Shown one piece after another: positions 2,681 to 3,198 of a stretch of DNA of 64,000 nt. The translations under genes were made by a program, and so were the position numbers. The notes under the pieces were generated by a model, which did no database searches, was not told the DNA's origin, and saw only the letters and a list, made by a program, of their open reading frames with translations. The stretch's first letter is position 1; every line of letters starts with the position of its first letter. The DNA comes from Streptomyces sp. CB02414 (GTDB lineage: Bacteria > Actinomycetota > Actinomycetes > Streptomycetales > Streptomycetaceae), in NCBI RefSeq assembly GCF_001905385.1, contig NZ_LIPF01000002.1:620001-684000 (forward strand), given 5' to 3'.

Positions 2681-2709
2681 TTGGCCACGGACCGTTCGCA
2701 GGGCATACT
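2681..2709 (+). promoter_or_regulatory. Promoter of the leader peptide / chorismate mutase transcript
   Basis: TTGGCC (2681-2686) and CATACT (2704-2709) are separated by 17 nt and resemble a housekeeping sigma promoter. The expected start point, about 7 nt downstream of the -10, coincides with the A of the leader ATG at 2716, predicting a leaderless transcript. Confidence 0.6.
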
Positions 2710-2715
2710 GGCGCC

Positions 2716-2787
2716 ATGCGCAAGTACCAGGTGTTCAGCTTTATCTATGGCAACCGGCCTACCGGCTGCCATGGTCGTGCTGCTTGA
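2716..2787 (+). CDS. Phe/Tyr-rich leader peptide (23 aa) of the chorismate mutase attenuator
   Basis: The short ORF reads MRKYQVFSFIYGNRPTG and then CHGRAA, stop. Tyr4, Phe7, Phe9 and Tyr11 give four Phe/Tyr codons in eight residues, and there is no Trp. Phe9 (TTT) and Tyr11 (TAT) use codons that are rare in this GC-rich genome. No Shine-Dalgarno precedes the ATG, and the promoter spacing predicts that the mRNA starts at the ATG. A hairpin (2747-2752 with 2767-2772, inner CCGG/CCGG) begins exactly at the last Tyr codon, and a terminator-like stem (2811-2845) follows the stop. The arrangement fits ribosome-mediated attenuation sensing charged tRNA-Phe/Tyr in front of chorismate mutase. The peptide itself probably has no further function. 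Confidence 0.7.
   Translation: MRKYQVFSFIYGNRPTGCHGRAA
2747..2772 (+). promoter_or_regulatory. Pause (1:2) hairpin of the leader
   Basis: ATGGCA (2747-2752) pairs with TGCCAT (2767-2772), and inside it CCGG (2754-2757) pairs with CCGG (2762-2765), around a CCTA loop with one mismatch. Its 5' arm overlaps the Tyr11 codon, so a ribosome stalled there would mask it. I could not identify a strong alternative antiterminator pairing; the best is weak and wobble-rich. Confidence 0.5.
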
Positions 2788-2810
2788 GCAACTGACGAGC
2801 GACAACTTCC

Positions 2811-2845
2811 CAGGCGCCCCGGGCCGACAAGGCCCGGGGCGCCTG
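2811..2845 (+). terminator. Transcription attenuator stem before chorismate mutase
   Basis: A perfect 15-bp stem (2811-2825 with 2831-2845) with a 5-nt GACAA loop, followed by TCGTTT. It lies 23 nt after the leader stop and 65 nt before the chorismate mutase ATG, so it must be read through for expression. Confidence 0.75.
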
Positions 2846-2910
2846 TCGTTTCCGGGTCCTGCCGCCCCGGGGCACCGCCACCACCCCCTTCCCGGCGAGG
2901 AGCCCCCGAC

Positions 2911-3198
2911 ATGACCGTCACCACCGCAGACAAGACCGGCGCCCGCACCGCCGAGGCCGCCGACGTGATCACCGGCGCCCGGGAGCGCATCGACGCGCTC
3001 GACGACCGGATCATCGGCCTGATCCAGGAACGGATGGCCGTCTCCGCCGTCATCCAGCAGGCGCGGATCACCTCCGGCGGCCGGCGCGTGAATCTCTCCC
3101 GCGAGATGGAGGTCCTCGGCCATTACAGCGAGGCGCTGGGCAAGCCTGGTACGCCGCTGGCGATGACGCTGCTGGAGCTGTGCCGGGGGCGCGTCTGA
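2911..3198 (+). CDS. Chorismate mutase, AroQ class
   Basis: 95 aa, monofunctional. It rearranges chorismate to prephenate, the branch point to Phe and Tyr. The helical AroQ signature is visible: RERIDALDDRIIGLIQERM near residues 20-40 (substrate-binding Arg and paired Asp residues), then AVSAVIQQAR and a third helix ending ELCRGRV. The length is that of free-standing actinobacterial enzymes. GAGGAG precedes the ATG by a good distance. It lies downstream of the Phe/Tyr leader peptide and attenuator, which suggests end-product control at the transcript level. No other aromatic-pathway gene is adjacent. Confidence 0.9.
   Translation: MTVTTADKTGARTAEAADVITGARERIDALDDRIIGLIQERMAVSAVIQQARITSGGRRVNLSREMEVLGHYSEALGKPGTPLAMTLLELCRGRV

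Follow-up and report, generated by a model that had tools for sequence, protein, structure and literature searches.

In Escherichia coli, the pheL leader is rich in Phe, contains no Tyr and belongs to an mRNA with an ordinary 5' leader and Shine-Dalgarno (SD) sequence. The leader peptide and Phe-charged tRNA are described as controlling pheA, which encodes chorismate mutase-prephenate dehydratase (PMC11802643). Among the Actinobacteria, a leader containing a Phe-Tyr-Phe run has been reported ahead of a gene of the aromatic pathway in Corynebacterium glutamicum, where the AroR leader and the aroF attenuator (PMC11802643, PMC4046766) control a DAHP synthase and are stated to respond to Phe, not to Tyr (PMC11802643). 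Short leaders preceding amino-acid genes, several of them leaderless and some followed by terminator hairpins, are also listed for Streptomyces lividans TK24 (trpL1/2, ilvL, leuL1/2, thrL, metL, alaL), but none of these eight listed leaders is one for Phe or Tyr, and the word "chorismate" is absent from the main text of that report (PMC8079986). It is likewise absent from the main text of PMC2965389, PMC10272879, and PMC4833913, and in a survey of Actinobacteria from 2005, no conserved RNA structure is reported ahead of the operons for phenylalanine or tyrosine (PMC1262725). Among the open-licence literature, judged by title and the start of the abstract, no description of the element treated here was found; nor did the open-licence literature yield a published start site for this Streptomyces leader.

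The element lies in a 64,000-nt stretch of DNA from Streptomyces sp. CB02414 (the window), and all features given below are on the plus strand. It shares the actinobacterial setting and the aromatic control codons with AroR and the chorismate mutase target with pheL-pheA, but differs from the former in that chorismate mutase and not DAHP synthase is controlled, and from the latter in having a free-standing mutase, Tyr among its control codons and an apparently leaderless start. Its mode of action resembles that of AroR, but the controlled gene marks it as a different system. The mechanism is of a classical kind; what appears to be new is this member, its antiterminator with a hairpin nested inside, and how widely it occurs. 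As to known RNA families, a search of the window gave no Rfam element at gathering score, and no Rfam leader family is listed even at E <= 10 in 2600-2950, where only microRNA, sRNA, snoRNA and similar models occur.

Results

Layout of the locus and the leader reading frame

The controlled gene (2911-3198) encodes a monofunctional AroQ chorismate mutase of 95 amino acids, assigned by Pfam (CM_2, type II) and NCBIfam (chorismate mutase), and is preceded by its own SD sequence, GAGGAG at 2897-2902, outside the hairpins described below; the corresponding gene of S. coelicolor is presumably SCO4784. Direct reading places a -35-like hexamer TTGGCC at 2681-2686 and, after a 17-nt spacer, a -10 hexamer CATACT at 2704-2709, with six bases between the latter and the leader ATG at 2716, which is also the predicted transcription start. 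TTGGAC or TTGGCC is often seen by eye at a similar place in relatives, and the -35 assignments made by script vary widely across the leaders compared. A generic scan of the window lists neither a promoter nor a plus-strand terminator at 2681-2911; it misses the leader promoter because a match of 8/12 bases to the consensus is too low.

The comparison covers 210 located leaders, of which 189 are distinct. A script which, in all frames, accepted -10-like hexamers placed 5-8 nt ahead of an ATG or GTG returned CATACT in 145/189 and CATAAT in 15/189 of the distinct leaders, a distance of 6 nt to the start codon in 125/189 and of 7 nt in 64/189 within that permitted range, and ATG as the start codon in 185/189, the other four starting with GTG. 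The script found no SD-like site before the leader start in any of the 189. With a mean spacing of 6.3 nt between -10 box and start point reported for S. lividans (PMC8079986), the leader mRNA is apparently leaderless, its transcription probably starting on the A of the leader start codon or right beside it. Leaderless leader peptides have already been reported in S. lividans (PMC8079986), and such a peptide is therefore not new in Streptomyces.

The apparently leaderless leader ORF (2716-2787) comprises 23 codons, MRKYQVFSFIYGNRPTGCHGRAA, and a stop codon. Its control codons (2734-2748) are Phe7 (2734-2736), Phe9 (TTT, 2740-2742), and Tyr11 (TAT, 2746-2748). Codon 9 is TTT in 186/189 distinct leaders of the family and codon 11 is TAT in 185/189, while codon 7 is TTC in 148/189 or TAC in 20/189 (together 168/189). 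At codon 11, L210 has CAG and L221 has CAT. Both conserved codons are rare: in the 44 ORFs called by script in the window, TTT makes up 6/383 Phe codons (1.6%) and TAT 10/365 Tyr codons (2.7%). The TAT at codon 11 can be explained by the first hairpin, P1, whose stem includes that codon. The rare TTT at codon 9 is nearly invariant and lies outside every conserved helix found, beside a codon 7 which is mostly the common TTC. The distance from the start codon to codon 9 takes seven values between 15 and 33 nt, all of them multiples of 3, and the two are in frame in 189/189; since the frame is kept although the distance varies, the ORF is probably translated.

Much of what the sequence-only reading had proposed for this part is borne out. 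The -35/-10 pair with its start point on the ATG of a 23-codon ORF can be read directly, the downstream gene is a chorismate mutase by both domain databases, and Tyr4, Phe7, Phe9, and Tyr11 are present, two of them in codons which window codon usage identifies as rare. The cross-species alignment suggested at the time yields conserved Phe/Tyr codons at positions 7, 9, and 11. Tyr4, in contrast, which had been named alongside the other three, is not part of the sensor, as relatives mostly carry His at position 4 and the Tyr4 of the window is not conserved.

Hairpins, terminator and antiterminator

The hairpin P1 (2745-2774, -19.1 kcal/mol) starts at the Tyr11 codon and is formed by regions 1 and 2. 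Region 2 (2755-2774), the 5' side of the antiterminator, takes in the loop and the 3' arm of P1 together with 3 nt of its 5' arm, and pairs with region 3 (2810-2826), which serves both as the 3' side of the antiterminator and as the 5' arm of the terminator. Nested inside the antiterminator is a third hairpin, P2 (2781-2801), in which 2781-2786 pair with 2796-2801 and the 5' arm lies over the stop codon; in 146/189 leaders, the stop codon falls within P2 or directly beside it. The terminator hairpin (2811-2845, -39.9 kcal/mol) has a perfect, GC-rich stem of 15 bp (2811-2825/2831-2845) with the loop GACAA, followed by TCGTTTCC with a short U tract. In the automatic parse, 9/189 leaders are without a simple terminator, probably owing to stem mismatches.

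The fold of 2717-2850 (-76.8 kcal/mol) has a z value of -7.2 relative to shuffles, most of which comes from the terminator, as the leader RNA cut before the terminator 3' arm reaches only z = -1.5; stronger evidence against chance comes from the family, in which position, frame and codons are conserved. When the P1 5' arm is masked, the predicted fold is the antiterminator, at -29.8 kcal/mol for RNA from 2755 (2755-2828, P2 included) and -21.2 from 2759, and the RNA beyond a ribosome placed at the stop codon is predicted to fold into the terminator. Unmasked window RNA cut before region 4 retains P1; the unmasked consensus RNA, unlike that of the window, prefers the antiterminator (-32.9), so P1 would need to win by forming first.

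The antiterminator energy alone is unremarkable in such GC-rich RNA: after dinucleotide shuffling of region 2 of the window, 71/1000 sequences pair with region 3 just as well as the native one does, which is weak support, and the same kind of test over 93 combinations gives a mean z of -1.33. Because the shuffle test gave little, a swap test was adopted, in which native arms are compared with partners swapped between species, using the 56 leaders with less than 90% identity that also make up alignment A2. The native partners are predicted to pair more stably than the swapped ones in all four elements; uncorrected for relatedness, the test gives p = 0.007 for P1 (49 unique arm pairs), p = 1.5e-8 for P2 (54), p = 2.7e-6 for the terminator (55), and p = 0.005 for the antiterminator (54). 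P2 was judged by folding and by a listing of its arms, since MAFFT misplaces parts of it in alignment A2, as seen by eye. Its arm types change together, for example TGCTTG:CAAGCG, TGCTTG:CGAGCG, GTCTG:CAGAC, GCCTG:CAGGC, and GCATG:CATGC, among others. The clearest case for the antiterminator is a genus whose region 3 ends in GGGTT, where the native pairing scores -22.5, compared with -16.1 and -13.9 when region 2 is taken from the two classes that are the largest apart from it; in several classes that consist of one member, the native partner has no advantage. Changes on both sides occur in 2/31 predicted pairs when 31 Streptomyces-type leaders are aligned, most pairs being invariant or variable on one side. 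Counted over nine positions in each of 189 sequences, the core of region 3 deviates from the consensus 7 times and that of region 4, the opposite arm, 65 times, for the most part at a single wobble position; the low variation of region 3 fits its having two partners.

The locus thus combines, as in trp-type attenuators, a short ORF whose control codons specify the amino acids made by the controlled pathway with a protector or pause hairpin whose 5' arm contains or abuts these codons (P1, from Tyr11), a Rho-independent terminator between ORF and gene (conserved 15-bp stem, weak U tract), and a mutually exclusive antiterminator using the terminator 5' arm. The hairpin at Tyr11 and the perfect 15-bp stem after the stop codon had been noted before and hold up in reading and folding, and pairing-preserving changes, proposed as a check on the hairpins, were found in relatives. 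The remark that there was no strong antiterminator is wrong, as 2755-2774 pairs with 2810-2826 once the P1 5' arm is masked, and the departure from the trp scheme which had been considered for that reason is unneeded.

Linkage to chorismate mutase and spread in the family

The leader element is tied to the chorismate mutase gene, and the two occur together. Among the best 80 of 379 confirmed loci fetched with the chorismate mutase of the window, 79 of which are titled Streptomyces, the leader core lies upstream of the gene in 79/80; the remaining locus (L057) offers only 131 bases before the match because of a contig end. A search with the leader peptide gave a match in 108/150 genomes of the genus, and, with E <= 0.001 as the cut-off, an RNA model (R1) matched 102 of the 150 family genomes, spread over 16/17 genera, including one chance match (L214), which is the sole match of its genome (G222) and genus. 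As judged from 80 family loci fetched, all 70 with an R1 E-value <= 2.1e-6 lie upstream of chorismate mutase, as does the weaker L213. The other nine weak loci (L211, L212, L214-L220) have neither a chorismate mutase nor a leader and were terminator-only matches by eye; the same holds for the low-scoring matches L289 and L294, which also lack a DAHP synthase.

Of the 48 family genomes that R1 did not match, 20 were tested: in 15 the gene was likewise unmatched, one gave a weak 31% match to it, and the remaining four, all from one genus, carry the gene behind a diverged leader visible by eye. In another genus (g14 in the tool's numbering, e.g., G162, G174, and G186), 10/11 genomes tested are without a match to the chorismate mutase of the window and one has a weak match, so that a different enzyme may serve the Phe/Tyr branch in this genus. 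An order-level search with a second model (R2) matched 130/132 genomes of the window's own genus, counted without reference to the gene behind each match, and the two genomes left over show no match to the chorismate mutase gene. G344 has only a weak R2 match, its gene lying 96 bases from a contig end.

Similar leaders in other families and before DAHP synthase

R2 and protein searches together turned up aromatic-rich leaders, similar in layout, ahead of chorismate mutase in six further families (f2, f3, f23, f33, f37, and f39 in the tool's numbering), for example MLANRRFFYGYGPGSLAIVGC and VSDRRSYFYYGTGSPAAVGRA; at the single f2 locus, the scan found no terminator. Candidate leaders were obtained at 20/21 chorismate mutase loci outside the family, two of them weak (L343, L344), with a scan that is uncalibrated against chance and that covers neither the chorismate mutases of f6 nor most of those of f16 and f20. 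The C-terminal ends of the leaders in other families consist of unrelated residues.

Leaders of the same kind also precede DAHP synthase in f10, f19, f26, f29, f30, and f40, e.g., MQRNFWRFYGYRPDSRTVACQALR and VRNRFFSYGDAPEAARAGRLAAAA, the downstream gene of L274 being a DAHP synthase by NCBIfam. The same uncalibrated scan gives a candidate leader at 17/30 DAHP synthase loci, and among the other 13 only L374 is short of upstream sequence. Aromatic-rich leader ORFs before DAHP synthase were noted at L274, L275, L277, L279, L288, L291-L293, L295, L345-L348, L353, L357, L358, L360-L362, L364-L368, L370, and L373; they are apparently leaderless, mostly followed by a terminator-like hairpin and usually contain Trp beside Phe/Tyr codons. 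A count of Trp codons was based on 172 chorismate mutase peptides, of which 155 were translated by script from the distinct leaders and 17 typed, and on 19 DAHP synthase peptides, all typed and many of them from one family. Up to the conserved Tyr-Gly, a Trp codon occurs in 15/19 DAHP synthase leaders vs. 5/172 chorismate mutase leaders (Fisher p = 8e-15, uncorrected for relatedness). For Trp anywhere in the peptide the contrast is weaker (16/19 vs. 34/172), as a Trp codon lies in the P1 loop of many leaders from other genera. The difference matches the pathway, since DAHP synthase supplies the route to Phe, Tyr and Trp alike and chorismate mutase only that to Phe and Tyr.

All these leaders may represent one ancient class of leaderless attenuators across the actinomycetes, placed at the DAHP synthase entry with Phe, Tyr, and Trp codons and at the chorismate mutase branch with Phe and Tyr codons. 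The rare UUU and UAU codons in the sensor would then make the switch report the decoding speed at wobble-read codons, that is charging plus tRNA modification, instead of charging alone. We put this forward as a speculation and regard it as rather doubtful.

Discussion

Conservation, reading frame, control codons, hairpins and alternative pairing are all found in the leaders themselves. As judged from their sequences, it is highly probable that the element is a ribosome-mediated transcription attenuator which senses the charging of Phe-tRNA and Tyr-tRNA and controls the AroQ chorismate mutase; start site, translation, stalling and direction of regulation are what we infer from this arrangement. 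An intact 70S ribosome would start on the 5'-terminal AUG of the leader. With ample charged tRNA, it would reach the stop codon inside P2, cover region 2 and melt P2, so that region 3 would pair with region 4, form the 15-bp terminator and stop transcription near 2845. If Phe or Tyr were short, the ribosome would be expected to stall at codon 9 or 11 and to mask the P1 5' arm; P2 would fold and bring regions 2 and 3 together, and the antiterminator would form before region 4 is made, allowing RNA polymerase to continue into the chorismate mutase gene. A word of caution comes from the ilvB leader of S. coelicolor, where mutating the candidate control codons is reported to have been without effect (PMC1262725); sequence alone has therefore misled before in Streptomyces.

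Other readings of the same features have to be weighed against this attenuator. Control of translation or of Rho access by the leader peptide, not by an intrinsic terminator, would agree with the short U tract and has parallels in the actinobacterial cys operon leaders, which are described as having no conserved terminator hairpins (PMC1262725), and in leuL1 of S. lividans, for which none is reported either (PMC8079986). However, the long terminator stem is kept with pairing-preserving changes, and the SD sequence of the gene lies outside the described hairpins, which makes this reading improbable. A small protein gene with a terminator of its own, combined with another chorismate mutase promoter between 2845 and 2911, would account for the well-conserved ORF and the strong hairpin behind it. 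It is nevertheless extremely improbable, as the gap between terminator and gene is only 65 nt, gene and leader co-occur in nearly all loci tested, and the complementarity of regions 2 and 3 would lack an explanation; the generic scan lists no promoter in the gap, but also misses that of the leader.

Nascent peptides may themselves arrest the ribosome, as TnaC does in response to tryptophan, and the conserved C-terminal peptide of the leader (YGNRPTGCHGRAA), which is near-invariant in Streptomyces loci, might similarly stall it in response to a metabolite. The P1 3' arm, however, is read in another frame in 10/189 leaders, and in L141 and L147-L149 the C-terminal residues differ while the RNA hairpin is kept. 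The leader of L036 (about 1258-1335) carries a natural 1-nt insertion inside the ORF, which alters the C-terminal residues and leaves the control codons in place, and the leaders of other families, too, end differently, as noted above. We therefore consider peptide arrest very unlikely: since the P1 3' arm shifts its frame while the hairpin persists, the conserved thing, as far as can be told from these sequences, is the RNA and not the C-terminal peptide.

Chorismate mutase sets the share of chorismate that goes to Phe and Tyr, and chorismate additionally serves antibiotic producers as a precursor of secondary metabolites. The Phe/Tyr gap left by the 2005 survey and by the 2021 re-annotation of S. 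lividans is filled by an attenuator that accompanies the gene in almost every Streptomyces genome searched and that would provide a simple handle for aromatic flux as well as a highly conserved natural test case for leaderless mRNA initiation coupled to a transcription decision. The switch very probably turns chorismate mutase on, in Streptomyces and its relatives, only when Phe or Tyr runs short.
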